From Streptosporangium sp. NBC_01755 (GTDB taxonomy: Bacteria > Actinomycetota > Actinomycetes > Streptosporangiales > Streptosporangiaceae), in NCBI RefSeq assembly GCF_035917995.1, contig NZ_CP109131.1, positions 1,674,001 to 1,738,000 of the forward strand: a DNA stretch of 64,000 nucleotides, written 5' to 3'. Of the stretch, positions 4,980 to 61,854 are shown piece after piece (position 1 is the first letter of the stretch; each line of letters starts with the position of its first letter). The notes below the pieces were generated by a model. That model was not told the DNA's origin and did not search any database. It saw only the letters and a list, made by a program, of their open reading frames with translations. The position numbers and the translations under genes were made by a program.

Positions 4980-5053
4980 GTCCTGCCTTCAGCGTGAGAG
5001 ACCGATGATCTTAACTGTCGCCGTACGGCTTGCACTTGATCTTTTACTGAAAG

Positions 5054-7159: not shown

Positions 7160-7217
7160 GCCGTGTCCTCCGGAGGTTCTCATTTGTGGAAGCGACCTAC
7201 AAGAATGCTCGCCCTGG

Positions 7218-8954
7218 TTATCGGCCATCAAGGCTTTCCAGGATTTCCCGGACCTTTTCGACGGTGGGGTGGCGGGAGCCGTATCTACCTTCGAGATCCC
7301 GCAGCAGGTCGCTCAGCGTGACCTTCGCCCGCGATCTCCTGCCGGAGCCGAGTTCGAGAAGCCCGATCTGGCGCCGCAACTCCAGCATCCGTTCCTCGTC
7401 GACGCCGAACCGTCTCTCGTCGTCCAGGAGCCCGCCGAGCTGGGCCAGGGCCAGGTTCGTCTCGCCGACCGCCGCGTGGCAGTTCGCCTCCATCAGGCGG
7501 CAGCGCAGTACGAGATCGTGCTCGGGCCCCTCCCGGTCGGCGAGGTCGGCCACCAGCCTGCCGAACTCGGGAGCGGCCCGCCGGTAGTCCCCGCCGAGGA
7601 ACAGCGCGTCGGCCAGTTCGATTCGCAGGTCGATCACACCTGAGTCCTTGGGCCCGAGGGCACGGACGGCCGGTTCCACCGCCTCCGCCAGCACGTCCGC
7701 GGCCTGGGTGAACCTCGACTCGGCCTTGAGCGCCTCGGCGTCTTTTCTGGCGGACGCGACGGCCTCCTGCCCGGCATCACGCTGCCCGGCCGCCGGCCCG
7801 GCGTCGCCCCGGCGACCCCCGGCGTCCCGGGGCGACCCGGGCCGGGGCGACTCGGCCCCGGCCCCGTCCCGGAGCCGCTCGGGCCGTGCCTTCCCGGTCA
7901 GCGGCCGATCGGCGGCGGGGCCGGTCGCCGATCCGACCGGCCTCACGCCGACCGACACCACCGCGACCGGCCCCGCTGCGGGCGGCTCGGCGGCGATCCG
8001 GCCCACGACGGCCGCGTACATCCGCACCGGGTGGGGTGCGCCGAGGTTCACATAACCGGGGAAGGCCGGCAGGTCGCGGCAGAAGTCCATCAGCCGCCGG
8101 TAGACCACGTCGGCACTGGGAGGCCGCTTCTCCGGCTCCTTCGCGAGCAGCCACAGGACGAGCCGCTCCAGCCCTTCCGGCACCTCTCGTCTCCTGGTAC
8201 GCAGCGGCCGGGGAGGAACGTCGGTGTGGTTGCGCATCGAGGCCAGCGCCGTGGGACCGGCGAACTGGTTCTTCCCACTGAGCATCTCGTCCAGGACCAC
8301 ACCGAGGGAGTACAGGTCACTCCGCCGGCTGGTGGCCTCGCCCATCGCCTGTTCCGGCGCCATGTAATCGGGGCTGCCCACCACGATGCCCGTCGCGGTG
8401 AGCTTCGTGACGGCGTTGGAACCGAGCGCGGCGACGATGCCGAAGTCCAGCACCTTCACCGTCCCGTCGGGGCAGAGCATCAGGTTGCTCGGCTTGAGGT
8501 CACGGTGGACCAGCGAGTTGGCGTGGGCCACGGCCAGCACCGAGCACACCTGGGCGGCGATCGCCACCGCCCAGGCGACGGGCACCTCGGTCTCGTCGAG
8601 CAGCGAGGAGACCGGGCAGCCGTTGACGAGCTGCATGACCAGGTACAGCTCTTCGCCATGCGATCCGCAGTCGTAGACGACGGGCACCCCGGGATGTTCC
8701 AGCCGGGCGGTGATCCGCGACTCGCGCACGAAGCGTTTGGTGAGTTCGTCATCGGGTCTGCCGTCGGTCTGCCTGTCGATCCGGATGAACTTGACCGCGA
8801 CCGGCCGATCCAGACGTTTGTCGTAGCCGAACCAGACCTCCCCCATACCGCCCGCCTGACGGGACACCGGGTCCAGTTCATAGCGATCTCCGACAATTGT
8901 CCGCCTGCCCACAACGGCCCGCCTTCCACGGAGAATTTTGGTATTTCCTAACAA
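7218..8954 (-). CDS. soluble serine/threonine kinase with TPR-like C-terminus
   Basis: A Hanks-type kinase of about 564-578 residues. The P-loop is degenerate (RQAGGMGEV). The ATP lysine lies in VAVKFIRID, the catalytic loop is HRDLKPSN (near residue 150), DFG follows at about 170, and the activation-loop end is GSPDYMAPEQ. No transmembrane segment follows the kinase, unlike PknB-type receptors. Instead a proline/alanine/glycine-rich linker leads to helical repeats (about 395-578) resembling TPRs. The start is uncertain. TTG at 8954 is the longest, and GTG at 8912 is a good alternative that begins just before the kinase domain. It lies directly downstream of drmC on the same strand. Kinases are known in other phage-defence systems (PglW, Stk2), so a signalling role in defence is plausible. 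Confidence 0.85.
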   Translation of the reverse strand: MLGNTKILRGRRAVVGRRTIVGDRYELDPVSRQAGGMGEVWFGYDKRLDRPVAVKFIRIDRQTDGRPDDELTKRFVRESRITARLEHPGVPVVYDCGSHGEELYLVMQLVNGCPVSSLLDETEVPVAWAVAIAAQVCSVLAVAHANSLVHRDLKPSNLMLCPDGTVKVLDFGIVAALGSNAVTKLTATGIVVGSPDYMAPEQAMGEATSRRSDLYSLGVVLDEMLSGKNQFAGPTALASMRNHTDVPPRPLRTRRREVPEGLERLVLWLLAKEPEKRPPSADVVYRRLMDFCRDLPAFPGYVNLGAPHPVRMYAAVVGRIAAEPPAAGPVAVVSVGVRPVGSATGPAADRPLTGKARPERLRDGAGAESPRPGSPRDAGGRRGDAGPAAGQRDAGQEAVASARKDAEALKAESRFTQAADVLAEAVEPAVRALGPKDSGVIDLRIELADALFLGGDYRRAAPEFGRLVADLADREGPEHDLVLRCRLMEANCHAAVGETNLALAQLGGLLDDERRFGVDEERMLELRRQIGLLELGSGRRSRAKVTLSDLLRDLEGRYGSRHPTVEKVREILESLDGR

Positions 8955-9013: not shown

Positions 9014-9778
9014 TCACCGCAACCGCTCCAGTACGCCCCTGACACGTAGTTCGGCGATGTGCTCGGCCGCCCGCGACGGTGTCGAACCGCCGTACACCAG
9101 CAGCCCGGCCTCGATGTTCCTGGCGACCCCGGACTGGGTGAGGTTGGCGCTCGACACGAGCAGCACCCGCCGGTCGGCGACGGCGAGCTTGGCATGCATC
9201 TTCGCCCCCTGCCCGTCCCGCCTGGCCGTCGGCCAGTGCCACAGCTCGACCCCGGGGACCGACGCGAACGCCGCCGCCGGCTCGGCGCCGCCCAGCGCGG
9301 AGCCCGCGCCCCGCAGGGTCTCGACGACGGCCATCACCGAGACTCCGCGCCGCACCGCCTCGGCCAGTGCGTCCAGCAGCGGCGGGTACGGCTTCGCGGA
9401 GTAGGTCATCAGAAGCAGTTCGTGCGACGCCTCGTTCACGACGTCCACCAGGACCTGCGCGGTGGACCGGACCGGCACAGAATGGGTGCCCGGCCCGCTC
9501 CACACCGCTTCGACCCGGTGGGCGGCGGCGTGCCGCGCGTACCCGTCGGCGACACCCCGCAGGTACGCCGCGGCCTCCCCGTCCGGTATCCCCTCGGCTT
9601 CCTGCGCCGCCAGTACGGCCCGCGCCACCTCGGCGAATCCGGGGGCCGGAACGGCCGAGGGGATCGCCGAGCGTGGTCCGTCCCCTGAGATCCGCTCGGC
9701 CAGCGTGCGAACTCGCACCGGTCCGAGCCGGGCGACGGCATCGGCCGCCACCTGGGCGAAGGGAGAGTCCGGCGTCAC
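9014..9778 (-). CDS. drmC: DISARM protein DrmC (phospholipase D-like)
   Basis: A 254-residue phospholipase D superfamily protein. One HKD motif is visible near residue 190 (MHAKLAVADRRVLLVSSANL, i.e. HxK with D further on). A degenerate first half (MTYSAKPYPPLLDALAEAVRRG) is also present. PLD-fold proteins of this size are the third core component of DISARM. The GTG start at 9778 overlaps the drmB stop as GTGA, a typical translational coupling. Much longer upstream frames are shadows of drmB. In studied DISARM systems DrmC is a core gene, yet it is not always essential for protection. Confidence 0.88.
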   Translation of the reverse strand: MTPDSPFAQVAADAVARLGPVRVRTLAERISGDGPRSAIPSAVPAPGFAEVARAVLAAQEAEGIPDGEAAAYLRGVADGYARHAAAHRVEAVWSGPGTHSVPVRSTAQVLVDVVNEASHELLLMTYSAKPYPPLLDALAEAVRRGVSVMAVVETLRGAGSALGGAEPAAAFASVPGVELWHWPTARRDGQGAKMHAKLAVADRRVLLVSSANLTQSGVARNIEAGLLVYGGSTPSRAAEHIAELRVRGVLERLR

Positions 9779-11706
9779 GGGATCTCGGGGTAGAGGGCCA
9801 GGTCTGGGTCGCCGATGGGCACGATGAACCTGCGGTCCAGGAAGCGGTTGCCGCGTTCGCAGGTCGTCTCGGAGACGAAGAGGCAGACGTGGCAGGCGGC
9901 GCCGTGCAGGAAGTCCTCGGGTGCCCGGGGCAGCCGCTCGGCGCAGAGCGGGTCGGAGGAGCAGTGCCTGGCCTCCGACAGCGCGCGGCGGGTCAGCCGG
10001 ACCAGTTCCTCGGGTTCGGCGAGCGAGACCAGCCCGCCCAGGGTGCCCTCTGCGTCCGGCACCGCCGTGTAGATCAGGATCCCGCTGCGCGGGTCGTCCT
10101 CGGTGCCGGCGTAGATCCGCTCGGACAGGCTGGCGGAGTTGTAGCCGCATTCCAGCGCGATCGTGCGGATCAGCAGGTGCGAGAGCGTGTGCAGGGCGTA
10201 GTAGCGCAGGTCCGGCCAGCCCCGGTACCTGTCGAACCCCAACGGGATCCGGTCGGAGTAGCGGTGGTCGCGGAACCGCCCGTACGCCTCCCGGTGCTCG
10301 TGTGGGACCGACCGCGTCTGGCCGCTGTGCTCATCCGTGAAGGAGGAGGCGCGTACCCGCCCCTCCCACGCCGTCAACAGGTCCTCGGACAGCTTCAGGA
10401 AGATGCCCTCGCCGCGTACCTCGCTCGCGGGCACCCAGGTGGGCTTGGAGCGGGCCAGCGGTGCCCGGGTCACCAGCTCGGGGTCCTCGAAGTCGGGGGC
10501 GTCCAGCCGGGTGAAACCGATCATCGCGCGGACCTCGCGCAGCCGCTCGGCCTGGATGACGTCGGCGAAGTAGCCCTTCAGCAGGCTGGGTACGCCGTCC
10601 GGGTGCCGGTGGAGGGTGAAGTCGTCGGTCGGCTCGGGGAGCGTGGGAGCGGAGAAGACCTGCCATTCGGGGGTGAGCAGGTCCAGCCGTCCCTGCACCT
10701 CACCGCTCGCTGCCTCCAGCTTGTCGCGGTGTCGCTCGATGGCCGCCCAGACCTCCTCGTTGTCGGGCCACTTCGCCAACTCGTGGGAGAGCGGCGCCAC
10801 GCGGCGCATGTACTCCAAGATCTCCACCCCGGGGGCATGCTGGAGGCTCTCCCAGAACTGCTCGACCCTGGCGTCCAGCTCGTCCGCGCCCGGCTTGGGT
10901 ACGGCGAGCGCGGAGAGGGGCTGCGCGAACCACTGGTTGGAGGCGCCCACCACGACGAGGTGCGGCTGCTGCTTGCAGCCGTTCTCGGCGAACGTGCCCA
11001 GGTGCGGGTGGCGGCCCCGGCAGCCCGGCAGTTCGGCCCTGCCCTTGCGCCCCATGGCCTCGCGGATGTTACGGTCCTCGCCGCAGCGCTGGCAGGTGAT
11101 CCGCACGTTGGCCCCGATGTTGCCGCCGAAGTCCTCCATACGCAGGTTGGGCTTGGGCGCCTTGGCGCACTTCTGGCCTCGGTGCACGAACTCCAGGTAG
11201 GGGAAGTCGTCCAGGTGCCCGGCCGTACAGGCCAGCACGAAACGGGCGCCGACCACCAGGCGTTCCTTGTTGCCGCGTCCGCACTCGTGGAAGAACCTGG
11301 CCTCGTGCGGCTTGCTCGGCTTGTCGTTCCTGAAGCCGAACGCCTGGGTGTCGATCGGCGCCAGCAGGTTGCAAGCGGTGCAGCGCATCCAGCTCGGGAA
11401 CGGCATGACCGGCACACCGACCCTGGCGGCCTCTCCCTTGGGTTTGGTATCGGTTCCGGGCAGCCAGGGAGCGGGCTTGAGCTCTCCGACGGTCTTGCCG
11501 AGGATCGCCTGCACGGCGGCGAGCAGCCGGGCTTCGATGATGACCTGCGGGGTGTCGCCGAGCCTGTCGTACCGCCAGTCGTCCAACCCTCTGACCAGCA
11601 CCGAGAAGTTCGGCAGGTCGACGATGGAGCCGACGCCGGAGGTGAACATCAGGTGGCTGGGGCGCACGGCCCCCACCCGGCGCAGGTACGGTGCGGAGTC
11701 GGCCAT
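9775..11706 (-). CDS. drmB: DISARM protein DrmB (DUF1998)
   Basis: A 643-residue protein with the DUF1998 signature in its C-terminal third: LHTLSHLLIRTIALECG, GILIYTAVPDAEGTLGGL, and then a zinc-type cysteine cluster (CAERLP, CHVCLF, CERGNRF). Further cysteine pairs occur in the N-terminal half (MRCTACNLL and CQRCGEDR). DrmB is one of the three DISARM core proteins and works with the DrmA helicase, forming a DrmAB complex on DNA. Its ATG at 11704-11706 overlaps the drmA stop by one base (TAATG), and its stop overlaps drmC, so drmA-drmB-drmC form a tightly coupled operon. Confidence 0.92.
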   Translation of the reverse strand: MADSAPYLRRVGAVRPSHLMFTSGVGSIVDLPNFSVLVRGLDDWRYDRLGDTPQVIIEARLLAAVQAILGKTVGELKPAPWLPGTDTKPKGEAARVGVPVMPFPSWMRCTACNLLAPIDTQAFGFRNDKPSKPHEARFFHECGRGNKERLVVGARFVLACTAGHLDDFPYLEFVHRGQKCAKAPKPNLRMEDFGGNIGANVRITCQRCGEDRNIREAMGRKGRAELPGCRGRHPHLGTFAENGCKQQPHLVVVGASNQWFAQPLSALAVPKPGADELDARVEQFWESLQHAPGVEILEYMRRVAPLSHELAKWPDNEEVWAAIERHRDKLEAASGEVQGRLDLLTPEWQVFSAPTLPEPTDDFTLHRHPDGVPSLLKGYFADVIQAERLREVRAMIGFTRLDAPDFEDPELVTRAPLARSKPTWVPASEVRGEGIFLKLSEDLLTAWEGRVRASSFTDEHSGQTRSVPHEHREAYGRFRDHRYSDRIPLGFDRYRGWPDLRYYALHTLSHLLIRTIALECGYNSASLSERIYAGTEDDPRSGILIYTAVPDAEGTLGGLVSLAEPEELVRLTRRALSEARHCSSDPLCAERLPRAPEDFLHGAACHVCLFVSETTCERGNRFLDRRFIVPIGDPDLALYPEIP

Positions 11707-14700
11707 TACTTGCCCTTCCCGTTCAGCTCGGACACGCCCATCTCGTCCCCTTCGGGGACCTCCACGCCCGTGCCGTCAGCGTCCGACGGCTGGAACGTCC
11801 AGGCCGGTGCCCCGTACGGCACGGCGAAGATGTCACCGCTGCCCGGCAACAGCAGGTTGAGCTCGTTCTCCGTCTCGCGCATCGAGTTGCCGACGGTCAG
11901 CGCGTCCCACCGGCCGTTGCCGGCCCGGTTCAGCAGGCCGAGCACGATCTCCTGCTTGGTGCTCTTGCGCTGTTCGTAGCCGAGCCGGGCCGCGCTGCCC
12001 TTGGCCTGCTCCCAGGAGTCGGTCACCACCTTGATCCGTTCGGCCAGGTAGTCGCGGGCGCGGACGTCGCCCGCCGCCTCGGCGCGGGTCAGCAGCCGGT
12101 CGACGATCCGGCCGACGACCGGCCCGGACAGCGGCACCTCCTCGGCGTCCCGGTTACGTGAGTACGACTCCTCGGCGTTGCGCACCGCGGCGACGAACAT
12201 GGCCGCGGTGCCCCGGTCCAGCGCCCGGCGAGTGTACGGGGTGACCGACAGCGCCTCGACCTGGCGGTAGAACGTGGCGTGGTAGTGCTCGAAGTCCTCG
12301 TAGTGCGCCAGGTCGCGGGGGCGCGACCAGTTGTAGAGCGTGATCACCAGACCGGGGCGTTCGGCGTCGCGGCCGACGCGGGAGGAGGCCTGGATGTACT
12401 CGGCGGTGTTCTTGGGCTGCCCGGTGACCACCATCAGCCCGAACCGGGAGACGTCCACACCGACCTGGAGCATGGAGGTGGCGAGCACCGCGTCCACCGG
12501 CTGGCGACCCGTGCCGCGCCGCCGCTGACGCTCGGCCAGCGGATGGGCGTTCCGGCGTTTCTCCTTGTTCTTCTCCTTCAGCACGTCGGCCCACTCCGCG
12601 CGGATCGCGTACCGGCGCCCCGAGGTGTCCGTCTCCTGGTCGAAGCCGATCTCCAGTTGCTTGAGCACCTCGCTGATGTCTCCTGAGGAGATCCGGGAGG
12701 TCAGCTCCACCACGGTGAGCAGGTCTGCCGGGGAGGAGAGCCGGTTGGCGATCCCCTTGCGCCTGCCGTGCGTCCGGATCCGCGTGGTCACGTCGTCGTC
12801 CAGATAGCGGCGCATGCCGGCCAGCTCGCGGGTGGCGTTGAAGTAGCCGACGACCGTCATATAGGGGTCGGCGGGCTCGCCGTACCGGTCGAACATGGTC
12901 TGCCCGGCCAGGAACAGGATCTCCGCCAGCCTGATCTCGGCGGACTTGAGCCTCGTCCCATGCGCGCAGACCCCGAGGTAGCGGCGGCCGGGCGTCTTCT
13001 CGGTGAGCGGCACCTGCCGGGAGAAGAAGGTGTCGGTGACGTCGATGACCTGCGGCGGGAACACCGCGAGCCGGCGACCGAAGACCCCGAGCACCTGGCG
13101 TTCGGCCCGTTTGGTGGTCGCGGTGGAGGCGATGATCTTCGGCCCGGTCAGGGTCCCGGGGCGGGGGCTCCAGGTGCAGAGCTCGTCCACGGCCGCCTCG
13201 AACAGGCCGACCGTGGTGCCGAGCGCGCCGGAGATCAGGTGCAGCTCGTCCTGGATGATCAGGTCCGGCGTGCGGAGCCGGAGGACCGGGCGACTGACCA
13301 CCTTGGGCAGCTTCCCCTTGGCGTGGTGCTTCGCACCGCATTTAACGTGCTCGTCCAGGTCGGTGTGGCGGTAGCCGTGCCGGGGGCACCGCTGGCTGAC
13401 CCGGCCGAACAGGTGACCGGCGAACCCCCGCCAGGGAAGCTGCGCCAGCTTGTCGACGGTGGCGATGACCAGGCTGGGGACCAGCCGGTAGATCTCCTCG
13501 TCGACGGTGAGGATCGGCATCCCGTCCCGGCGCGCGGCGATCTCCTCGGCGTCGTCCAGTTCGGAGGTGAGCATCCGGTCCTCGCCGATCCGGGAGAACG
13601 GGCAGGGGTCGGCCTCGCCCTCCCGGCCCCGGCCGCAGTAGAGCAGCACCCTCCTGCGGTCATCGTCGGTGAAGAGATTGCGATCCCCGGTCAACTTCTC
13701 TCCGCACCACGGGCAGGTCAGCGTCTGCAGCACGTTGGTCCTGCGGCCGGCCGGCGCCTCCCTGGCCTCGTGGATCTGGTCGGCCGCCTCGGTGAACCAG
13801 TTCGGGGAGACAGCACCGCCCACCCACAGGCCGATCCGGAACGGCTCCTCACCCCAGGTCGCCGGGTCCGCGCGGCGCTGCACCTCGGCGGCGCAGACCA
13901 GGGCGGCGGCCCGCTGGAACTGCTGCGCGGTGAGCAGCCGCAGGGTGTAGCGCATCAGCACCGACACCCCGGACCGACCGTCGCGGGCGTCGGCCCCGGA
14001 GCCGACCGTGCCCTGCAGGCGGCGGATCGCGAAGGTGTAGGCGGTCAGGCCGAGGTACGCCTCGGTCTTGCCGCCGCCGGTCGGGAAGAACAGCAGGTCG
14101 ACGGTGGCCGAGGCGTCGGCGGCCCGCTCGGCGTGCTCGGGGTCGGTCAGCGACGGCAGGTTGAGCAGCACGAACGCGAGCTGGAACGGCCGCCACGACG
14201 CGGCGCTCTCCCCCTGTGCCTCCACCTTGGCCATGGCCTGCGGGTAGCTCAGCCCCAGCTCGTCGCGGAGCTTCCCGACCGTGGTTCGGCGGCGCTGCGC
14301 GGCCATCGCGGTGTTGGCGAACCGGAACGCGGCCAGCGCCTGGTCGTGGCGGTCCCGCCCGGGGTCGGTGAGCAGCTCGACCCCGTCGCGGATCCGTCTC
14401 GCGGCCTGCTCCGCCTTGTACACCGCGTTCTTGGCCACCTCGCGAAGCGGCTCGGGCAGATCCGGGATCCGGTTCCGCTGCCCGTCCAGCCAGGCGGCGT
14501 ATCCGTCCGCGAGCGGGTGCAGCCCGGCTGCGAGATCCTCCGGCGAGGCCATGGCCAGGACGTCCATGGAGAGCTCGACCTCGGCCAGTGCGGTCCCCTT
14601 GCCGACCGGGGCGACGGTGGCGGGCACGTCGTAGGCGGGCAACCAGGTGGTACGCAGCTCCCGCGCGCACCGCTCCCCTTGGGCGACCTCGGCGTGTACG

Positions 14701-15728
14701 GCGACGTTGCGACCGGAGGCGTAGCGGCGCTCGTGCCGGTAGAGCAGCCGCAGATGCCGCTCCTCCAGGTCGTCGCCGACCGCCTCCAGGTCGTCCACCG
14801 GGTCATCGATCGGCAGGAAGACATCGGCGGCCTGGGTGGCGTGGGGATCGGCGGCGGTGGCGGCGGTGGCGGCGGCGGCCGTGGCGGCCGTGATGTTGCC
14901 GCTCGCGGCGTCGCCGTCGGCGGGGACGAGGACATCGGTGCCGGGTGCGGTCACGGTCAGTCCGGCCTGGAACAGCCAGGCGACGTCGGGGGTGCGTTCC
15001 GGCTCGATCTGCTGGTTGATCAGCGTCAGCTCGACGACCCGGCGGCCGTCCCGCTGCGGCCGGACCGCCACCGCCAGCAGGACACCCGGGTCTTCGGCAC
15101 GTTCCATGGTGAGCGGAATCCGCTGCGACGGCTCACCGTCGAGCCGGACCGTTTTCCGGTGGTCCACCTGCTTGCGCGTCCAGGTCGAGGCGGTGCGTTC
15201 CCTGCCTTTGGCATCCTCGATCATGGTCTCGGTCTTGGTGTAGCGCCCCCAGGAGGCGACGACGGCGAGTGCGTCGACCTCGCCGGGCACCGCGAAGGAC
15301 AGTCCCATGGACGAGGCCCAGATCCGGCCGAGGTTCTGCGGGGTGAGCACCTCCGGCAGCTCACCCTCGGCGCCGTCACCCTCGACCCCGATCTCGGTCT
15401 CCGGCATCTCTCCCGCGTCCTCCCGGGCCGACCGGTGCGAGGGTTTCGGGCCGAGCATTCCGACGAGGTAGCGCTCCCGCGGCCCGGACGTCCCACGCGG
15501 TAGTTCCTCGCCGTCGCCGTCCCACGGACCGAGCAGGTCACGCCGTACGAGCTCCTCGAACGCGTCACGCACCTGGAAGGACGTGCCCTGCTCGAACGCC
15601 TGCGAGGTGTCCAGACCAGGAGGCACCTGTTCCTTTTTAACCGGTTTATCCGATTTTTCGACTACAAAGTCGAGCCCTTGCTGTTTGTCACCTAAATCCG
15701 GAAAAAGGTCTTCCTGGTCGTTGATCAC
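11706..15728 (-). CDS. drmA: DISARM helicase DrmA
   Basis: A 1340-residue superfamily 2 helicase. Motif I is FFPTGGGKTEAYLGL (near 556) and motif II is IIQDELHLISG (near 828). Motif III is ASTATTKRAERQ. The C-terminal lobe has SMLQVGVDVSRFGL and QASSRVGRDAERPG. Cysteine pairs (CPWCGEKL, then CGRGREGEADPCPF) suggest a zinc-bound insert. This matches DrmA, the core DISARM ATPase that with DrmB binds and probably unwinds or translocates DNA with 5' single-stranded ends. The GTG start at 15728 gives an N-terminus MINDQEDLFPDL whose QEDLF resembles a sliding-clamp-binding peptide. An alanine/threonine-rich stretch lies near residues 275-300. It is separated from drmMI by 12.3 kb, which is unusual for DISARM. 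Confidence 0.92.
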   Translation of the reverse strand: MINDQEDLFPDLGDKQQGLDFVVEKSDKPVKKEQVPPGLDTSQAFEQGTSFQVRDAFEELVRRDLLGPWDGDGEELPRGTSGPRERYLVGMLGPKPSHRSAREDAGEMPETEIGVEGDGAEGELPEVLTPQNLGRIWASSMGLSFAVPGEVDALAVVASWGRYTKTETMIEDAKGRERTASTWTRKQVDHRKTVRLDGEPSQRIPLTMERAEDPGVLLAVAVRPQRDGRRVVELTLINQQIEPERTPDVAWLFQAGLTVTAPGTDVLVPADGDAASGNITAATAAAATAATAADPHATQAADVFLPIDDPVDDLEAVGDDLEERHLRLLYRHERRYASGRNVAVHAEVAQGERCARELRTTWLPAYDVPATVAPVGKGTALAEVELSMDVLAMASPEDLAAGLHPLADGYAAWLDGQRNRIPDLPEPLREVAKNAVYKAEQAARRIRDGVELLTDPGRDRHDQALAAFRFANTAMAAQRRRTTVGKLRDELGLSYPQAMAKVEAQGESAASWRPFQLAFVLLNLPSLTDPEHAERAADASATVDLLFFPTGGGKTEAYLGLTAYTFAIRRLQGTVGSGADARDGRSGVSVLMRYTLRLLTAQQFQRAAALVCAAEVQRRADPATWGEEPFRIGLWVGGAVSPNWFTEAADQIHEAREAPAGRRTNVLQTLTCPWCGEKLTGDRNLFTDDDRRRVLLYCGRGREGEADPCPFSRIGEDRMLTSELDDAEEIAARRDGMPILTVDEEIYRLVPSLVIATVDKLAQLPWRGFAGHLFGRVSQRCPRHGYRHTDLDEHVKCGAKHHAKGKLPKVVSRPVLRLRTPDLIIQDELHLISGALGTTVGLFEAAVDELCTWSPRPGTLTGPKIIASTATTKRAERQVLGVFGRRLAVFPPQVIDVTDTFFSRQVPLTEKTPGRRYLGVCAHGTRLKSAEIRLAEILFLAGQTMFDRYGEPADPYMTVVGYFNATRELAGMRRYLDDDVTTRIRTHGRRKGIANRLSSPADLLTVVELTSRISSGDISEVLKQLEIGFDQETDTSGRRYAIRAEWADVLKEKNKEKRRNAHPLAERQRRRGTGRQPVDAVLATSMLQVGVDVSRFGLMVVTGQPKNTAEYIQASSRVGRDAERPGLVITLYNWSRPRDLAHYEDFEHYHATFYRQVEALSVTPYTRRALDRGTAAMFVAAVRNAEESYSRNRDAEEVPLSGPVVGRIVDRLLTRAEAAGDVRARDYLAERIKVVTDSWEQAKGSAARLGYEQRKSTKQEIVLGLLNRAGNGRWDALTVGNSMRETENELNLLLPGSGDIFAVPYGAPAWTFQPSDADGTGVEVPEGDEMGVSELNGKGK

Positions 15729-15927: not shown

Positions 15928-16497
15928 TCAGTCGGCCATCAGATCAAGGCAGTAGATATCCCAGAACGGCGGCACAGCCCCTGGTATCGGACCTTTTCTA
16001 CCAATCAGCTGCCAGCCCAAAGCTACATAGAAGGCGTGCGCCTGAGCCGCGTCCGGCTGCACCGAAAGCACCGCGCGGGATTCCGATCTCGGACCGAGCA
16101 GGGAGTCGACCAGGCGACGGCCGATGCCTCTCCCCCTCCACCGCTCGCTCACCCCGATGTCGATCAGCGCGAAGGTCCGCCCATCCCACTCTCGCGTGAC
16201 CTCGGAGGGTACGGGAGTCGTGAACCTCTCCCACCACCTGTGGTCTGTCAGCAGGCGATGTCCGTACGTGAAACCCACGACGTCCGTACCGGACAGCGCG
16301 ACGGAGATCCCGAAGGTGAGGTCTTCCCGGATCGTGGTCAGCATGTCCTCATGCTCCTGCGCCGCCCGCTCCCCAAAGAGAAAGGGGGGCCGGAGGAAGA
16401 TCTCGTCATGCAGCCTCCGGATGGAGGCGTGCCAGGAAACAGCCAGTTCTCTGCCACCGGCACGGAGGGAGGCCGCCGACTCGTGCGGTCCTGTCAT
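15928..16497 (-). CDS. GNAT-family acetyltransferase
   Basis: A 189-residue protein from the ATG at 16497 (a TTG at 16533 gives 201). The acetyl-CoA pyrophosphate-binding loop is visible as ERWRGRGIGRRL near residue 120, preceded by the strand FALIDIGV and followed by AHAFYVALGWQLIG, the usual C-terminal GNAT strand. It should transfer an acetyl group from acetyl-CoA to an amine; the substrate cannot be told. The start codon overlaps the stop of the NB-ARC/TPR reading frame as ATGA. Before the IS insertion, this gene was therefore translationally coupled to the NB-ARC sensor gene. The IS now separates it from that gene's promoter. Confidence 0.85.
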   Translation of the reverse strand: MTGPHESAASLRAGGRELAVSWHASIRRLHDEIFLRPPFLFGERAAQEHEDMLTTIREDLTFGISVALSGTDVVGFTYGHRLLTDHRWWERFTTPVPSEVTREWDGRTFALIDIGVSERWRGRGIGRRLVDSLLGPRSESRAVLSVQPDAAQAHAFYVALGWQLIGRKGPIPGAVPPFWDIYCLDLMAD

Positions 16498-16748
16498 AAG
16501 CCGGAGTCGTTCAACGGGCCGATCCTCTCCCAAAGGTCAGCGGCATCCGAATCGCCCAGATTCTCAAGGAGCGCAGCCGCTCTGCCGAAATAAGCTCGGG
16601 CCTCTCCCCGCTGCCCCATTCCTTGGTACGCCTCCCCGACACCGATCAGGGCACGCGACTCGTTGAGCCTGTCTTCGAAGGTGCCGAACGTTGCCAGCGC
16701 GAGCCGGTAGCTGGCCCGTGACTCCTCATACGAGCCTGACTCCTTCAG
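16494..16748 (-). pseudogene. severed 3' end of the NB-ARC/TPR gene
   Basis: The minus strand here encodes a TPR segment (KESGSYEESRASYRLALATF, then ALIGVGEAYQGMGQRGEARA, ending LNDSGL) with no start of its own. Removing the IS and one copy of its TTCAG duplication joins this frame exactly in phase to the NB-ARC gene at 18492: ...ALGLAL joins KESGSYEE. It is therefore the missing C-terminal 85 or so residues of that protein. The stop overlaps the GNAT start as ATGA. Confidence 0.9.
16744..16748. repeat. target site duplication, left copy (TTCAG)
   Basis: TTCAG directly outside the left inverted repeat. The identical second copy is at 18492-18496. Collapsing the two copies restores the NB-ARC reading frame. 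Confidence 0.9.
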
Positions 16749-18491
16749 CCTGGATCCACCGAGCCGATTCTGAACTGAAGATCCTGAAATGAGAGGAGGT
16801 GCCCTCCGACCTGGGATGATGGGAGTTCTTCAGGCTTCCGCCACCTTGATCGAGAGGACACCTCTCAAGTGCAATTGTTCCACGACTCTGCCAAGACCCA
16901 TGCGATCTTCGATGAGGAGCGTGTAGTCGCGTACGGCGGGCTGGGGCCGGTGATGCGGTTGGCCGAGCGGTGCGGCCTGAGCGACCTGGCGGGCGAGCAC
17001 GTCACTCCCACCGGCCGGGACGGCGTGAACCCGGCGGCGAAGATCGGCTCGATCGTAGCCGGGATGGCCTGCGGGGCCGACAGCATCGATGATCTGGACG
17101 CACTGCGCCACGGCGGCATGGACACGTTGTTTACCGGTATCCGCGCACCGTCCACGCTGGGATCGTTCCTGCGGTGCCTGGCCTGGGGCAACGTCCGGCA
17201 GATCGAGAAAGTGGCCCGCCTGCTGCTGGCCCGGCTGGCCGCCCATACGCCGTTGCTGCCCGGCGCGGACGTGCTCGCCTTCCTCGATGTGGACTCGATG
17301 CAGCGACGTACCTACGGCTACAAGAAGCAAGGATCGGGGTTCGGCCACACCAAGATCGGCGGCAAGGGCGTGCTGGTGCGCGGACTGAACGTGCTGGCCT
17401 CCACACTGTCCACACCGCTGGCCGCCCCGGTGGTGACCGGCACCCGGCTGCGCGGCGGAAGCGCGAACTCCGCCCGCGGCGCGGCCTGGTTCGTGCGTGA
17501 GTCGATCGGCGCGGCACGATCAGCGGGCGCGAGCGCCACCCTGATGATGCGCGGGGACTCGGCGTTCTACACCGCAGGCGTGATCAACGCCTGCCACACG
17601 AACGACGTGCGCTTCTCCGTCACCGCCAAAATGGACCCCAAGATCAAGCCGCGATCGCGGCGATCGACGAAACCGCCTGGACAGCGATCAAATACCCCAA
17701 CGCCATCTTCGACGAACAAGCAGGGGGCTGGATCTCCGACGCCGAGATCGCGGAGGTCGCCTACACGGCGTTCGCCGCGAAGAAGGGCCAGGCCATCACC
17801 GCCCGGCTGATCGTGCGCCGGGTCAAACGGCTCAACTCGCAGACCGGGCTCCGGCCAGAGGAACCGTTCCCGCTCTACCGCTATCACGCGATCTTCACCG
17901 ACAGTCCGTACGCCCTCGGGCAGGCCGAGGAACAACACCGTGATCACGCGGTCATCGAGCAGGTCAACGCGGACTTGATCGACGGGCCATTAGCGCACCT
18001 GCCCTCGGGCGTGTTCACCGCCAACGCCGCCTGGCTGACCTTGGCGGCGATCTGCCACAACCTGCTGCGCGCGGCCGGCTGCCTGGCCGGAACCTTTCAC
18101 GCCAAGGCGCGCGGCGCCACCCTGCGCCGCCATCTCATCGGCGTGCCCGCCCGCATCGCCCGGCACGGCCGGGGCCACCTCACCCTGCATCTTCCCCGGT
18201 ATTGGCACTGGCGGCACGCATGGATGAACCTCTTCCAAGCCGTCCACCGGCTGCCACCGATCCGCGCGGCTTGACCCGTCCCCGCCCTGCCACCACTCTT
18301 CCCTCGACCTCCACGGTCACCCGCGCCCTCGCGCACGAACCCCGCCCCCGAGCCCGTGAACGCCTGGACAATCCGTGACCCGCGCACGGCGGGTTCTCCA
18401 CACCCCAAATCAGACCCCCGTCAGGCAAAACGGTCCTGGTGAAGGAATCGAACCGAAGAATGATCACCAGAATTCACGCCGTGGATCCAGG
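16749..18491 (+). mobile_element. IS1380-type insertion sequence, 1743 bp
   Basis: The ends carry inverted repeats that begin CCTGGATCCAC; 11 of the first 11 and 19 of the first 24 bases match between left end and inverted right end. The element is flanked by perfect 5-bp direct repeats TTCAG (16744-16748 and 18492-18496), the size expected for the family. It carries one transposase gene on the plus strand, opposite to the gene it interrupts. The transposase is frameshifted, so the copy is probably immobile unless another copy supplies the enzyme. Confidence 0.92.
16869..18274 (+). pseudogene. IS1380-family transposase, frameshifted
   Basis: The first 257 or so residues give a good IS1380-type DDE transposase: FLDVDSMQRRTYGYKKQG and MRGDSAFY are family landmarks. 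The frame breaks at about 17640, where AAG ATC AAG is followed by CCGCGATC instead of GCCGCGATC: one G appears to be missing. After a one-base shift the family sequence continues (AAIAAIDETAWTAIKYPNAI through TLAAICHNLLRAAGCLAG) to the stop at 18274. IS1380 transposases are normally one continuous frame, so this is an inactivating deletion or a sequencing error. GTG at 16869 is the likely start. Confidence 0.85.
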
Positions 18492-20452
18492 TTCAGGGCT
18501 AGCCCGAGAGCACATCTGCCCCAGGCGAGGCTCCACTCGTCCTCGATCTCTGCGAATATGCCGAGTGCCGCGCGGCAGTAGTCAGCCGCTTCGGCATGCA
18601 TCCCGAGCAGTCCGTAGCATTTTCCAAGACTGAGCCAGGCCATCCCCTCCCCCCTTTTCTCCCCGATCGCCTGGAAAACATTGATCGCCTCTTGGGTCAC
18701 CTCTATCGCCTGGTCCAGTTGCCGGGTCTCCTGGAGAACGACTCCTATCTGCCGCAGCGAGAAGCCCTCGACCCAGCCGTCTCCCACCTCATGTCCTGCC
18801 TCGGCACTGTTCTGGTAACACACGAGTGCTTCGTCGAGGCGTCGTAGCAACCAGTTCGCATCACCGAGCCCCAGGTAGTTGCAGGCCTCTCCGTATCGGT
18901 CACCGATCGACTTGGCGGCCTCCACTCCGACGGTGTGGATCTCACGCCAGTCCGACCAGTACGAACGGAGCTCGAAAAAGCCGTACATCACGGCCGGGAG
19001 TCTCCACGCTATGTCGAACTGTTCGGTTTTCACCGCCATCGCCAGGGCGTCGAGCAGGTTTCCTCTCTCCCGCTCGAACCACTGCATGGCCCTGTCCACG
19101 TCATCGAACAGAAGAGGAGTGATCGGCACACCGTCAATGTCGATGGGAACGCTGTGAAATCCCGGCAGAATGACCTTGTGTCCGTTGTAGACACTCATGA
19201 GATACCAGAGAAGGCAGCTTCTTACGGCTGTGACACGCACCGAAACGGTCTCTTCGACATTCACCCGCTCAACGACATAAACCCGTAAAAGATCATGTAG
19301 ATGATATCTTTCCGGCGCCACAGGTTGCACCAGATTTCTGCTCACAAGCGCGTCGATCAGCCGCCGCGCGGTCCTCTGATCCGCTCCGATCAGGGCTGCC
19401 GCGGCGGCCACGCTGAATTCGGAGCCCGGGTGCAGGCCAAGGAGTCTGAACATTCGCGCCAGGTCCGGATTGAGCGCCTTGTATGATGACGAGAACACTG
19501 CCCGCACATTGCTTAGTTCGTCATCCTCGATGCCCAGCGCGTCAAGCCTGGCATGCTCGTCCGCGAGTTCCGCCGCGAACTCCGCCAGACTGGTGTATGG
19601 GTGACTTGTTATGCGTTCGGCTATTATGCGTAACGCTAACGGTAGATAGGCGCAATGTGCTGCCAACTTCTCCGCGTCATCCCGCTCCGCATCGATCCGT
19701 TCCGCTCCCACTATGTTCCTGAGCAGTTCCAACGATTCAGCCGGTGAGAGAGCATCTATGACCATACGTACCGCACCCTCCCGAATAACAAGACCTTGCA
19801 GCGTGCTACGGCTGGTCACAAGTGTCGTACACATCGGAGAGCCGGGTAGGAGATTCCTCACCTGATCGACGGACGATGCATTGTCGATGACCACAAGAAC
19901 ACACTTACCGTTCAACACGGAGCGATATATCGCCGCCCGCTCCTCGAAGTCCGCGGGTATCCGGTCCGGAGCGACGTTCAGCGCACGCAGGAAGGAGTCA
20001 AGGGCCTGGCCGACACTTACCGCAGGGCCTGGGCCGTACCCCTTCATATTGATGTAGAGATCTCCGTCCGGGTAGTGGTGACGCACACGGTGGGCCCAGT
20101 GGACCGCCAGGGCGGTCTTACCAACCCCCGGGGTTCCCGCGATCGCCGAGATGACGGCCGACGCGCTCGCCGACTGGCCGTTCTCCGGTGAGTCGCGTGG
20201 CAGGAGAGCGTCCAACCTGGCCATCTGTTCTTCCCGGTTGACGAACTCGGTGACGTCCATGGGCAGCTGGCGGGGCCCGGGGAATATCCCCTTGGCTACC
20301 GGGCCGACATGGATGCCGCCGTGCACGGTCCCCGCCTGTACGGCCGCTCCCGACTCACCGCTGATCTCGTTGTGCGTGGTGCCCGACGCCTGCCCGTCCT
20401 TCAACCCGACTCCCACTGTCCGAAGACGACCGACCACGGATCTCCGGCACAC
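18464..20452 (-). CDS. NB-ARC/TPR protein with amyloid-type N-terminal motif, interrupted by IS
   Basis: 662 residues as it stands; about 740 before the IS insertion. Residues 28-50 (NEISGESGAAVQAGTVHGGI) match the RHIM-like bacterial amyloid signalling motif found at the N-termini of actinobacterial NLR-like proteins (BASS3 type). An NB-ARC ATPase follows: P-loop GTPGVGKT at 106-113, CVLVVIDNASS as Walker B, LPLALRIIAERI as the GxP/MHD-side helices, and HLHDLLRVYV. TPR-like helices run from about 480 to the end. The last nine residues (NLDPRREFW and stop) are encoded by the IS end. The GTG at 20452 is weakly supported; a TTG with GGGAG five bases upstream, nearer the motif, is possible. It lies 30 bases after the DUF6879 gene. 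It is likely an STAND sensor that oligomerises and nucleates amyloid signalling. Confidence 0.85.
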   Translation of the reverse strand: MCRRSVVGRLRTVGVGLKDGQASGTTHNEISGESGAAVQAGTVHGGIHVGPVAKGIFPGPRQLPMDVTEFVNREEQMARLDALLPRDSPENGQSASASAVISAIAGTPGVGKTALAVHWAHRVRHHYPDGDLYINMKGYGPGPAVSVGQALDSFLRALNVAPDRIPADFEERAAIYRSVLNGKCVLVVIDNASSVDQVRNLLPGSPMCTTLVTSRSTLQGLVIREGAVRMVIDALSPAESLELLRNIVGAERIDAERDDAEKLAAHCAYLPLALRIIAERITSHPYTSLAEFAAELADEHARLDALGIEDDELSNVRAVFSSSYKALNPDLARMFRLLGLHPGSEFSVAAAAALIGADQRTARRLIDALVSRNLVQPVAPERYHLHDLLRVYVVERVNVEETVSVRVTAVRSCLLWYLMSVYNGHKVILPGFHSVPIDIDGVPITPLLFDDVDRAMQWFERERGNLLDALAMAVKTEQFDIAWRLPAVMYGFFELRSYWSDWREIHTVGVEAAKSIGDRYGEACNYLGLGDANWLLRRLDEALVCYQNSAEAGHEVGDGWVEGFSLRQIGVVLQETRQLDQAIEVTQEAINVFQAIGEKRGEGMAWLSLGKCYGLLGMHAEAADYCRAALGIFAEIEDEWSLAWGRCALGLALNLDPRREFW
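18492..18496. repeat. target site duplication, right copy (TTCAG)
   Basis: TTCAG directly outside the right inverted repeat, matching the copy at 16744-16748. Confidence 0.9.
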
Positions 20453-20482
20453 GGTGTGCGCCGCCCGTGGAGTGAGGAAAAA

Positions 20483-21076
20483 TCATCCCGGTCGAGAGCA
20501 CGCACGCTTCCGTCGCCCGAGCATCAGATCGTCGTAACCGGCTGCATATTCCAAGAACGGAACGGACAGCCCGACGGCCCGGTCACGCCAGTAGTTCGCC
20601 TCCACGATCCTTCGTGGATCCTCGACCAGCTCAGCGGAGAGAAAGGTCCCCTCCGGGGTGTAGTTCATGATGAGCAGCCGGACGGAGTCGAAGAGCCAGT
20701 AGTCGACTCTGGGCAGGCCTTCCGGCCATTCATGCTCATCGACCGGGATGACCCTGACGTCCTCGCCGGCCGCAACCGTATGCCGATAAGACCATGCGCA
20801 TTCGAAGCGAATGTAATCCGACAGCGGTTCCATCAACACATGAACGCGATGGAATCGCTTTCCTTCCTCGACCCCTGCCCTGACCATGTCAACCCAGTCT
20901 TCGATTCCCGAGAACCGGCCACGCGGCCCGCCGACGAGAAAGCGATCAAACGCCTCCTGCTCGTACGAGACGTCGTAGGCCTGCAGAGTTTCCAGACGAT
21001 AGGCCGTGTGGCGAAATTCAACGAAAAGGCTGTTGAATCGGGGATCGCTCAGTGACAGAAACGTTGTGGCCGACAC
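20483..21076 (-). CDS. DUF6879 family protein (module copy A)
   Basis: A 197-residue protein from the GTG at 21076, ten bases after the preceding small gene; a longer frame to 21157 would overlap that gene. The segment FHRVHVLMEPLSDYIRFECAW followed by AGEDVRV matches the second copy at 61219 (FHRVRVVETPLTPYMRWELY, then CGERVRVV). This is the conserved core of DUF6879 proteins, which are common in actinomycetes beside small helix-turn-helix or NLR-type genes. The C-terminal half contains a conserved aromatic pattern (YWLFDSVRLLIMNY). The biochemical role is unknown. It is the second gene of the small-protein/DUF6879/NB-ARC operon. Confidence 0.8.
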   Translation of the reverse strand: MSATTFLSLSDPRFNSLFVEFRHTAYRLETLQAYDVSYEQEAFDRFLVGGPRGRFSGIEDWVDMVRAGVEEGKRFHRVHVLMEPLSDYIRFECAWSYRHTVAAGEDVRVIPVDEHEWPEGLPRVDYWLFDSVRLLIMNYTPEGTFLSAELVEDPRRIVEANYWRDRAVGLSVPFLEYAAGYDDLMLGRRKRACSRPG

Positions 21077-21086
21077 GAGTCCGCCG

Positions 21087-21302
21087 TCACCGGTCGGCCT
21101 GGTAGCGCCGAATCGCACCGAGAATGACTTCGGGATCGATTCGTACAGCGGTCTCACCGGGCAGCAGGTTCGCCAGCTCCCCCATTGTGGCCTCGTCCAC
21201 CTGGACGCCCTGCACGACCATCTCGCCGCTGTCCGCTAAGTAGACACTTGGGCAGCCCTGCCCTCCGGAGTTAGAATCTTTGCAGAGCATGGTCAGTTTC
21301 AC
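21087..21302 (-). CDS. small CP-motif protein, first gene of the NB-ARC module (copy A)
   Basis: A 71-residue protein. GTG at 21302 was chosen because AGGAG lies five bases before it; a longer frame to 21368 lacks a good site. The motif CPSVYLADSGEMVVQG followed by LLPGETAVRIDPEVILGA is matched by the small protein at 60957 (CPDIWQLDNGDIAVIG, then LAPDERLVVIPGIMLSA). Each lies directly before a DUF6879 gene. I know no function for it. The pattern suggests a small beta-rich partner of the DUF6879 protein. Confidence 0.72.
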   Translation of the reverse strand: MKLTMLCKDSNSGGQGCPSVYLADSGEMVVQGVQVDEATMGELANLLPGETAVRIDPEVILGAIRRYQADR

Positions 21303-28076: not shown

Positions 28077-31000
28077 TCAGAACAGGTCCTCCTGGTCGGT
28101 GTTCGCCTTGGCCTTGGGCTTGCCCCGGGTGTTCTTCTTGGCCCCCTTGTCGTGCAGGCCCTGGGCGACCTCTTCGGCATAGCGGGCATGGTTGAGCTCC
28201 AGCAGCCGGTCTACCAACTCCCGCTGCACGCCGGGGCCGACCGTGTAGCGGGTCTCCCGGGCTACGGGGTGGTGACCGTGGTCAAGCTTGTCAATCAGGT
28301 CGTCCCAGCCATAGGCGCGGCAGACCGCCTCGTCGATAGCCCGGTGGATACGGCGAAGCTCGACGATGTCCTCGTCCTCGCACTTGGGGTCGTTAACCAG
28401 GTTGTAGGTGGCGGTGAGACCGGCTTGGCGGGCAAGCATGAGGCGGCGGCGGAAAGTGTCGAGCCGGTTGCCGAGATCACGCATCTCCTGGGTGAGTTCG
28501 GGGAGGGGCAGCGTCTCGAACACGTCTGATGGCGTGTAGCGCAGGTCCGCCTTCATTGACGACGCGCGTGCACGCGCCCACCAGTAGTGCGGCGCGCTCG
28601 ACAGCAGCCCCAGCATCGCCATGTCATCTGTCGCGAAGACGCCAAGCATGTGCGAGAACACCTGCCCAGTCGGCACCATCACCGGCATCACGACCTTGCT
28701 CACGAGTGTGATCACAATGATCTGTTTCAGCCCAGCAATAGCTTTTAGCATCCCAGGACGCTTTTCGGCATAGTGCCACCAGTAATCACGGTAAACTTTA
28801 CGGTTATTAGTTTCCCGTTGCGGCTTCACTAATCGAATCACTTGATCATACGGCCCCACATAGGTCCTAGCAATATCTTCTGGCCAGTCATGGAAGTTAA
28901 TAACCCAACGACTCCCAGAAAAATCTGGACGGGAATTTAGATCTTGCCCATTAACGTAGGGGAACAGAACTTCGGCATTCTGTGAATCATCCTTAATCAT
29001 AGCCATAGCAACATTGGATTCGACCGTGAACCCAATGGCATCCAGCTTTGATCCAGTAAACGAAATCCCTTGACTCCCAAAAAGTCGATAGGGGTTCCCG
29101 GTTAAACGAGATACCGGATCAAGAGACGGGGTGATTCCTGCGACAGGCACGTCATCGGCAATCCGCTTGACATCTTCACCGAGCGCCATGCGGCTGATCC
29201 AGACTGCACAATACTCCAGTACCGCACTCTTCGACGGCCACGGACGACTCTTTACAGATTTGCGAATCACGGCCCCATCGGCCACAAGTTGATCGAGTCC
29301 GACCTCACGAGTGTCGCCTTGAGCGAGGGTATTAGTAGCAATTAAGCCAGCTTGACCACCCTTATCAAGAACTGCATGAGAACGTAAAGTGAAATAGGCT
29401 ACTAGATCCGCATTTCCGCGCTTACTATAACCGATCGATTCAACCAAGTACTCGCGATACAGCAACCCAAACGCACCGGTAATTTTAGAACCTCCAAGGA
29501 ACGGCGGGTTACCGATGACGGCGTCGAACCCTGCTCCTTCGAAGACCTCAGGAAACACCAATGGCCAATGGATAGGCTGCCGGTCAAAGTTTCCTTCCAA
29601 TTGATCGGTAGCGAGCCACTCCTTGCGTAGCTCCCGAGCCTCTAGCTCCCCTCTACCCTCAAATACGTCATTTGCCACCTTCGCCGCGTGCTCCGAACCA
29701 ACCTTGAGAGCCCGGTCCCCCTTGCCTGCATATGCCAGCGCTGCCCCCACTGTCAGGTCAGCAAAAAGCCGCAACTGCGCCGAGGCAATACCTATCTCTT
29801 CGAGCCGTGCCCGCTTCCTGGCCAAACCTGCCAGTGGGTCCTCTCCCAACTCGATATCCGCGATTCCCCGACGCCTATCGGCCAGTTCGGCGACCTTGGA
29901 GCGAACCCCTGCCGTCCAGTCGAACAGGTCCTCATGGACCTTCCGACCCTTCGCCGGGTCCATGTGCATGACCTCAAGCTGCTCAAGAGACGTGATCCCC
30001 AGCAGCGAGTCCCCCGCCACCAACCGGTCGTCCACGAAAGTGAACGGCCGAGCCGGGTCCATCGAGACCAGCCATAGCGACAGCTTGGCCATCTCCACGG
30101 CCATCGGGTTGATGTCCGCGCCGTACAGGCAGTGCTCGATGATCTGCCGTCGGGCCTCGATGACCAGCGGGTCGGCCTCGGCGTCGACGGTGCGTACCCG
30201 GTCGTCCTCGCGGCCGTCCAGGTAGGCGACCGCGCGCTCGTCGCCCTCGCGGGACCAGGCTTCGACCAGGGCCTCGCCCAGGTAGCGGGCCGCGGCGACC
30301 AGGAAGGCGGCCGAGCCCATCGCGATGTCGGCGACCTTGAGCTTCAGGATCTCCTTGGCCGTCTTCGGCTTCCACTGCGACCGGTCGGCGGTCTGCAGCG
30401 GGCCGACCGTGTAGATCAGCGGCTCCAGGGCCCCCTCGACGACCTCCTCGGCGAGCTTCCTCGGCGTGTAGTGGGTGCCGGTGTTCTTCCGCAGCGCCGA
30501 CTCGGTGACGTACAGCGTGCCGGGCAGGATGACCAGCGGCAGGCCGCGCAGGTCGTCGCGGATGATCCCGGCGAACGGCAGCAGCCGCCGGGCCAGCTCG
30601 GCTTCCCCTCCGGTGGCCGCGAGCAGTTTCCGGGTCGCCTCCAGCTCACCGGCCGCGTCCAAGGGGGTCAGTTTTCGGGCGACGGCGCCTGCCGTACCGA
30701 GCCCGGTGTCCCGGTACAGCTCGGCGAGTTTGGCGGCGAAGCCGTCGCCCGTCGTACCGCCGAATCCCGCGGCGAGGCTCTCCAGGTCGGTCAGCTCGAC
30801 CTCGGCCTCCTTACCGGCCTTGCCGATCAGGCCGACGACGGTGTCCGCCGCGCGGAAGCCCTCGAAGGAGAGCAGGCCCTCGTAGACGTAGCCGATCTGC
30901 TCGACGTCCAGGGAGCGGAAGCTGAGCTTGCGGCGCTCGCGGTTCTTCCCGGTGCCGACCTCGACGTACTGCACCGCCTTGAGCATGTGCAGGACGGTCC

Positions 31001-46418: not shown

Positions 46419-46546
46419 TCTCCACCGGAAACTTCCCAGAACAGGACGCGAGCGATCGCCCGGCCGGTCTTGGCGTCGCGCGATCGGGCGCGGGTGACAC
46501 CCATACCCGACGCACCTTTCCTGGGTGACCGCTCACCTGACGAGGA

Positions 46547-54883: not shown

Positions 54884-54909
54884 CAAGATCCTCGCACCCA
54901 GGAGCCCCG

Positions 54910-60020: not shown

Positions 60021-60374
60021 ATGTCGAAACGCACACTGATCTGGTTGGGCGTAACCGTGGCGCTGGCGGCACTGGCCGCGCTGGGGTGGTATTTCATCGC
60101 GGTCGGCCTGGATCGTGCCGACAAGCTCGCCAGCGTGCTCGGCGCCTTCGTCGGGCTGCTGGGGCTGGGGCTGGCGGTTTTCGGCGTTGTTTCCTCACCT
60201 CCCAAGGACACCGTTTCCTCACCTCCCAAGGACACCGAGCCTGAACCCGAGCCCGGCGGTGTCCACAACGAGATCAGTGGCACCGTGCACGGTAGCGCCG
60301 TGCAGGCCAGGGACATCGAAGGCGGGATCACCTTCGGCACTCCAAAACCTCACAGAGCACAGGAGATGGACTGA
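60021..60374 (+). CDS. two-helix membrane protein with amyloid-type motif, putative effector
   Basis: A 117-residue protein. Two hydrophobic helices (residues 5-29 and 35-58) are followed by a linker with a duplicated 8-residue unit (VSSPPKDT twice) and a C-terminal motif at 83-106: NEISGTVHGSAVQARDIEGG followed by ITFG. This is the same RHIM-like motif found at the N-termini of the two NB-ARC proteins in the window: NEISG is shared with copy A, VQARD with copy B. In known bacterial NLR/amyloid pairs the effector carries the motif opposite the sensor and kills through its other domain. Membrane disruption is the natural guess. Confidence 0.7.
   Translation: MSKRTLIWLGVTVALAALAALGWYFIAVGLDRADKLASVLGAFVGLLGLGLAVFGVVSSPPKDTVSSPPKDTEPEPEPGGVHNEISGTVHGSAVQARDIEGGITFGTPKPHRAQEMD
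60189..60236. repeat. 24-bp perfect tandem duplication
   Basis: Two identical 24-base units (60189-60212 and 60213-60236) encode VSSPPKDT twice in the linker of the motif-bearing membrane protein. Being perfect, the duplication is recent. Confidence 0.9.
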
Positions 60375-61848: not shown

Positions 61849-61854
61849 GCGTAA

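Follow-up and report, generated by a model that had tools for sequence, protein, structure and literature searches.

A module of three neighbouring genes occurs twice in the window analysed here, a stretch of 64,000 nucleotides from Streptosporangium sp. NBC_01755 (order Streptosporangiales; contig NZ_CP109131.1, positions 1,674,001 to 1,738,000). The genes encode a small protein with a conserved CP pattern (the CP protein), a DUF6879 protein and a NOD-like receptor (NLR) with an NB-ARC domain. An earlier note, made from the letters of this DNA, had proposed that the three genes act as one unit and form an undescribed defence system, in which the two small genes are a sensor or gate for the NLR. 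It is likely that CP, DUF6879 and NLR do form one unit, a claim for which there is good support in the close or overlapping spacing of the genes, three separate NLR-linked clades of DUF6879, one partner replacement and natural CP::DUF6879 fusions. Also seen from sequence are a motif common to NLR and effector, the location of NLR-type loci among defence genes, and the lack of catalytic residues in the predicted phospholipase D (PLD) fold of DUF6879. The system is undescribed in part: the CP–DUF6879 half appears to be so, whereas the amyloid NLR/effector half is of a known kind, the bacterial amyloid signalling sequence (BASS) systems. The pair does precede NLRs, as the earlier note held, but is not specific to them, an XRE regulator being more often the next gene. 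For the sensor or gate mechanism, in which CP–DUF6879 would control the switch that follows it, either XRE (transcription) or NLR (amyloid-triggered effector death), a probability of roughly 0.55 is given.

Organization, frequency and evolution of the module

Copy 1 lies on the minus strand. Its CP gene (21087-21302; 71 aa, start GTG at 21302) scores 76 bits with the CP family hidden Markov model (HMM). The DUF6879 gene follows at 20483-21076 (PF21806, E 2e-51), with a GTG start at 21076, the listed open reading frame (ORF) extending to 21157. The NLR begins at GTG 20452 or TTG 20404, and its 5' portion (18464-20452) contains NB-ARC (Pfam, 8.8e-12) and TPR domains and an N-terminal motif, VQAGTVHGG (NEISGESGAAVQAGTVHGGIH), near 20310-20371; intact NLRs of 711-728 aa are 53-57% identical to it. 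Position 18464, taken before as the end of the gene, is not its end. The frame stops there because an insertion sequence (IS) has entered (16747-18485, plus strand, right end approximate; Pfam DDE_Tnp_1_4), and the final ~90 codons are found past it at 16470-16757 on the minus strand, by tblastn with intact NLRs (e.g., residues 631-721 of L103, E 1e-12). The IS, of ~1.73 kb, has eight near-identical copies genome-wide, imperfect terminal inverted repeats and a transposase in two ORFs (16869-17810 and 17813-18274).

Copy 2 has the same gene order on the opposite strand (60945-62442, plus, against 21302-18464, minus, for copy 1), as the earlier note had read it. It comprises a CP gene (60945-61226; CP HMM 38 bits), a DUF6879 gene (61159-61848; PF21806, E 1.9e-34) and an NLR sequence at ~61855-62442. 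The patterns described for the small proteins were recovered, namely CPSVYLADSGE in copy 1 and CPDIWQLDNGD in copy 2 for CP, and the FHRV core in KRFHRVHV and SFFHRVRV, respectively, for DUF6879; with PF21806, the two DUF6879 proteins score 174 and 119 bits, both above the curated Pfam cut-off of 23.9 bits. The second NB-ARC frame is a truncated remnant and not a full gene: it keeps the motif VQARDVSGG (SELSGSSRDVVQARDVSGGVHF) and part of NB-ARC, lacks an in-frame start codon, is in phase with DUF6879 after TAG GCG TAA, and loses homology, with the C-terminus, beyond ~190 residues. Recent duplication or a simple tandem repeat is ruled out as the origin of the two copies by their DUF6879 proteins, which belong to different clades. 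A third set, CP–DUF6879–Bell-like–NLR, is located at ~5.957 Mb of the 8.15-Mb genome (L013), where the NLR frame ends at the start of IS3-type transposase frames. Thus, each of the three such NLRs detected in the genome is broken, with the CP and DUF6879 frames open.

Beyond this genome, DUF6879 is present in 138 of 151 genomes of the order. Co-occurrence was counted on 190 distinct full DUF6879 domains, a pool that the searches used enrich for NLR types: CP lies upstream in 167; XRE-DUF5753 follows in 94, 75 are linked to an NLR, and the remaining 21 are of other kinds. The three genes are regular neighbours elsewhere, CP being present at 73 of the 75 NLR-adjacent DUF6879 genes. In a sample of 80 loci from a search for DUF6879 across the order, CP almost always stands ahead of DUF6879; XRE-DUF5753 is the usual next gene, and in 11 of the loci it is an NLR, in the same or the divergent orientation. 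In the named collection, the DUF6879 proteins nearest to that of copy 1 belong almost without exception to CP–DUF6879–NLR loci and more distant ones to CP–DUF6879–XRE loci. The NLR arrangement has been found in Thermobifida, Actinomadura, Micromonospora, Salinispora, Saccharothrix, Herbidospora, Nocardiopsis, Streptomyces, Actinokineospora, Glycomyces and other genera. Starting from the NLR, 33 of 50 related loci examined have CP–DUF6879, those lacking the pair being mostly more distant. Gene spacing in these operons is tight or overlapping, down to -4 bp, and CP is naturally fused to DUF6879 in four sampled loci (L065, L117, L120 and L124). Of 69 loci that keep CP and DUF6879, 10 have a broken or truncated NLR, against one short XRE among 92 in the same slot, some of the broken cases being possibly draft-assembly errors or contig edges; the loci are L016, L013, L096/L147, L127, L138, L141, L145, L149, L150 and L154.

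Several variants of the pair have been observed. Some CP proteins have two tandem CP repeats per ORF, the second often without the C of CP (L062, L066, L067 and L076). DUF6879 is found on 95 plasmid records and once in the phage collection, in the temperate Streptomyces phage Kromp (L309), where genes 31-30-29 (a small gene in the CP position, DUF6879 and an 855-bp gene in the XRE position), all annotated as hypothetical, lie near integrase and lysis genes. A Herbidospora galbida contig, also in IMG/VR and classed as viral (L152/L206), encodes a DUF6879 protein 59% identical to that of copy 1 without CP or NLR; this lone protein could be a decoy.

The linkage to NLRs has changed rarely. On a maximum-likelihood tree of 97 DUF6879 proteins it requires three changes, forced by the starred branches, against a mean of 14.3 after shuffling. 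On a quick tree of 190 rows, NLR-linked proteins make up 19 of the 20 rows of clade I (copy 2 and the Bell type) and 53 of the 60 of clade II (copy 1); clade III consists of three NLR-linked rows within an XRE-linked clade. A tree of the NLRs places those of clade III together with those of clade I (support 99). Since the DUF6879 proteins of clade III lie in the XRE-linked clade, the pair has been exchanged in one NLR lineage, and the XRE-type pair of clade III is now divergent from the NLR. That the association was kept through partner replacement is the strongest argument from sequence that the NLR uses CP–DUF6879. In two clade III loci (L047 and L049), the gene after CP–DUF6879, in the same orientation, is formyltransferase-like (L049 5077-5961, Formyl_trans_N 5e-24).

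The N-terminal motif and effector-like proteins

A motif resembling the RIP homotypic interaction motif (RHIM) had been noticed at both NB-ARC N-termini, and it is conserved among relatives: nearly all NLRs of such operons carry the N-terminal consensus N-x3-G-x4/5-V-V-Q-[AIVT]-x-x-[VM]-x-G-[DGS]-[IV]-[HN], or in short form VVQAGxVHG[DG]. In all six frames of the window the motif has three sites only: one at the N-terminus of either NLR and a third at the C-terminal end of an ORF at 60021-60374 (plus strand) beside copy 2, which had been overlooked before. This ORF encodes an effector-like protein of 117 aa with two predicted transmembrane (TM) segments and the C-terminal motif HNEISGTVHGSAVQARDIEGGITFG. 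As a DNA pattern, the motif has six matches in the whole genome, four of them in NLR or effector genes, against two for the reversed pattern. Homologues of the 2-TM protein are present in 62 of the 151 genomes, with homologous TM hairpins and varied C-terminal motifs, and its last 35 residues match the N-termini of NLR frames of 700-1150 aa in these genomes. One homologue, 65% identical, is divergent from a motif-bearing NLR (L280, genome G084). Across the family (L280-L308), the membrane hairpin is conserved and the C-terminal motifs differ (VQARDIHGG, SVAIGGDNSGxISTGD, VYQAGGDI); possibly, a single effector domain is here combined with interchangeable amyloid motifs.

Other small proteins with a C-terminal motif were detected with an HMM built from the NLRs. 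They are encoded downstream (L134, L136, L142 and L143), divergently (L135 and L140) or upstream on the same strand (L149, L153 and L155), and their motifs score 9-20 bits (8.1 in L155) against a maximum of 8.5 for reversed ORFs. Several start with MDP(I/V)(T/S)LA or similar, in agreement with the published description of the Bell domain, which the proteins of L134, L143 and L153 fit; the protein encoded in the window forms a 2-TM hairpin. Four-gene CP–DUF6879–Bell–NLR operons occur in L013 and L082, where effector and NLR have another motif in common, QQAVQ-x2-GVQ-x-NTF, with small variations. An intact operon in the order effector–CP–DUF6879–NLR is present in Streptomyces sp. NRRL S-37 (L153).

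This layout is that of the BASS signalosomes (Dyrka et al., 2020, as summarised in PMC7889193 and PMC8086366), in which, according to PMC7889193, the NLR has the motif at its N-terminus and a small membrane-type effector has the same motif at its C-terminus. Both window copies resemble them in the short N-terminal motif of the NLR, and the 2-TM protein at 60021-60374 resembles their small membrane-type effectors in lying nearby and ending in the motif of the NLR. Such neighbours were found in the nine loci named above and in L270, L013 and L082, and in most other loci none was found. The differences are the 2-TM hairpin of the window effector and the additional CP and DUF6879 genes in the operon, which go unmentioned in the two papers. 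With the published BASS3 peptide VDLRDAKGVQVGDGNVQINRF (PMC8086366), the motif described here has only the V-Q-x-G core in common.

Predicted role of CP–DUF6879 and rival explanations

The AlphaFold2 model of the copy 1 DUF6879 protein (pLDDT 94) has a PLD fold (Foldseek E 2e-6, probability 1.00), with VIA Z-scores of 11.7 for the SauUSI N-domain, 11.5 for NucT, 11.1 for Nuc, 11.0 for FAM83B and 10.8 for TrmBL2; its sequence has no match among solved structures. The catalytic HxKxxxxD (HKD) motif is absent from all 190 DUF6879 domains, and on this ground an active PLD enzyme was rejected. Conserved residues of DUF6879, in the numbering of copy 1, include E29, R77, Y88, G104-E105, D125, W127 and D130. 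On this predicted fold without HKD, therefore, binding or scaffolding is likelier than PLD-type catalysis, and an unrelated activity could still be accommodated. Comparable proteins are FAM83 (DUF1669) and the C-terminal domain of TrmB/TrmBL2, which resemble DUF6879 in predicted fold and in lacking HKD but have no detectable sequence similarity to it, DUF6879 being found in a bacterial two-gene setting. For CP, sequence searches of solved structures gave weak, non-credible hits only, and the model of copy 1 (pLDDT 91) matches nothing credible in the PDB by Foldseek and nothing by VIA with Z of at least 2, a lack of match that proves nothing. CP as a distant DUF397 is ruled out by an hhalign probability of 0.5% between the profiles, which have no hits in common. 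In the literature searches, no paper was found on DUF6879 or linking NB-ARC, phospholipase D and conflict systems, and PADLOC-DB 2.0.0 has no family for CP or DUF6879 and only generic TPR/STAND hits for the NLR.

In the proposed mechanism, CP and DUF6879 would work jointly as an input module, probably as a complex, with DUF6879 as a catalytically dead PLD-fold protein, whose role would be to bind a partner or ligand, and CP as its small obligate companion. In most genomes the pair would act on the downstream XRE-DUF5753 transcription factor and in a minority on the NB-ARC-TPR NLR. There, it would sense infection or damage, or free the NLR from inhibition, so that the NLR oligomerises; the RHIM-like motif of the NLR would then template the same motif at the effector C-terminus, and the small membrane-active effector (2-TM or Bell-like) would kill or arrest the cell, presumably as an anti-phage response. 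We infer the sensor or gate role, which would fit a PLD-fold protein without HKD residues. More tentatively, CP–DUF6879 may be a portable two-protein receptor cassette, whose dead PLD-fold protein binds the infection or damage signal and which has been attached repeatedly to XRE or to amyloid NLRs; if so, it would be a common input module joining bacterial transcriptional regulation and NLR immunity. The pair encoded directly ahead of the NLR is a concrete, conserved candidate for what amyloid NLRs sense or how they are held off. Because it also fronts XRE regulators, knowledge of its ligand would extend to the whole family, in the 138 genomes, on plasmids and in phage. A putative family of 2-TM effectors, whose C-terminal motifs may be interchangeable, is added as well.

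Several observations weigh against the sensor or gate mechanism. Many motif-bearing NLRs have no CP–DUF6879 (L252-L261) and, therefore, the pair is dispensable for amyloid NLRs in general. A linked effector is found in only about 12 of ~75 NLR loci, and in clade I loci, searched over ~±6 kb, the sole cases are window copy 2 and L270. The partner replacement is one event in one lineage and three genomes. Finally, three broken NLRs with open CP and DUF6879 frames would also fit a function of the pair on its own.

Known systems with an analogous layout bear on the rival explanations. The XRE-DUF397 pairs of Streptomyces (WhiJ/BldB, Scr1/Scr2) also place a small protein beside an XRE-DUF5753 regulator and occur as many paralogues, and most CP–DUF6879 pairs precede such a regulator; they differ in that CP is unrelated to DUF397 by profile, DUF6879 is additional, and an NLR rather than XRE is directly adjacent in both window copies. 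In those pairs, the small protein is either required alongside its XRE partner or modulates it, and it is no toxin (PMC10364602, PMC10294661). They were once predicted to be toxin–antitoxin systems (PMC10364602), and a guard logic of that kind, in which CP–DUF6879 would be an inhibitory or guarded pair watched by the NLR or XRE and phage attack on it the trigger, instead of the pair binding a ligand, is a conceivable though unlikely alternative. It would agree with the more frequent breakage of NLRs than of XREs beside a retained pair, and the Kromp genes and the lone DUF6879 on the viral-type contig are compatible with decoys; however, the missing HKD residues in the PLD fold speak against an enzymatic toxin, and DUF397 proteins are non-toxic when overexpressed (PMC10364602).

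Somewhat less likely still is a regulatory NLR operon, in which an AfsR-like NB-ARC-TPR switch would serve physiology or development, as the XRE versions would. The copy 1 NLR does resemble AfsR/SARP regulators in its NB-ARC-TPR core (377 bits with the NCBIfam AfsR model, cut-off 1430), XRE regulators are the most common company of CP–DUF6879, and the similarly arranged WhiJ/BldB systems regulate sporulation and antibiotics. In contrast to AfsR/SARP, the NLR has an amyloid-type N-terminal motif, which it has in common with membrane effectors, and no SARP or other DNA-binding domain was found in it by Pfam search. Moreover, defence genes flank NLR-type and not XRE-type loci, and the window copies lie near DISARM and pPIWI genes. 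At 1e-15, the 117 proteins flanking 24 NLR-type loci matched 62 PADLOC families, among them PglX, type IIG restriction-modification, MTase_I, Cas56g, AbiLi, PprPIWI and MzaC, against six, mostly generic, for 20 XRE-type loci (104 proteins), a comparison that is supportive and not quantitative, the samples being partly of different genera and the families overlapping on single proteins. Mere hitchhiking of genes without joint function in mobile or defence islands is improbable: these islands are rich in IS and defence genes and effectors are often unlinked, but the NLR-or-XRE slot changes rarely on the tree, and gene overlaps, CP::DUF6879 fusions and an association surviving partner replacement speak for joint function.

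Defence neighbourhood of the window

The window as a whole forms an island densely packed with defence genes. Copy 1 sits inside a DISARM locus encoded on the minus strand, with drmMI on one side of it and drmA on the other; the DISARM genes are DrmB (9775-11706), adjoining DrmA (11706-15728; PADLOC E 2.3e-291), and DrmMI (28077-32252) and DrmD (32249-35407), both with PADLOC E 0. The ~12-kb block between drmMI and drmA contains copy 1, the IS, an XRE gene and PIN_10/HTH and NYN (HEC-09) genes. Upstream of copy 2, a pPIWI_RE protein is encoded at 54487-57876 on the plus strand (PADLOC and Pfam), and the effector-like gene at 60021-60374 starts ~2.1 kb downstream of it. Defence-type genes at 2664-8954, 44286-48064 and 54487-57876 include HEC-05, GajB/UvrD-like, N6-methyltransferase and pPIWI_RE genes, and two Ser/Thr kinases in the window match PD-T4-6 models.

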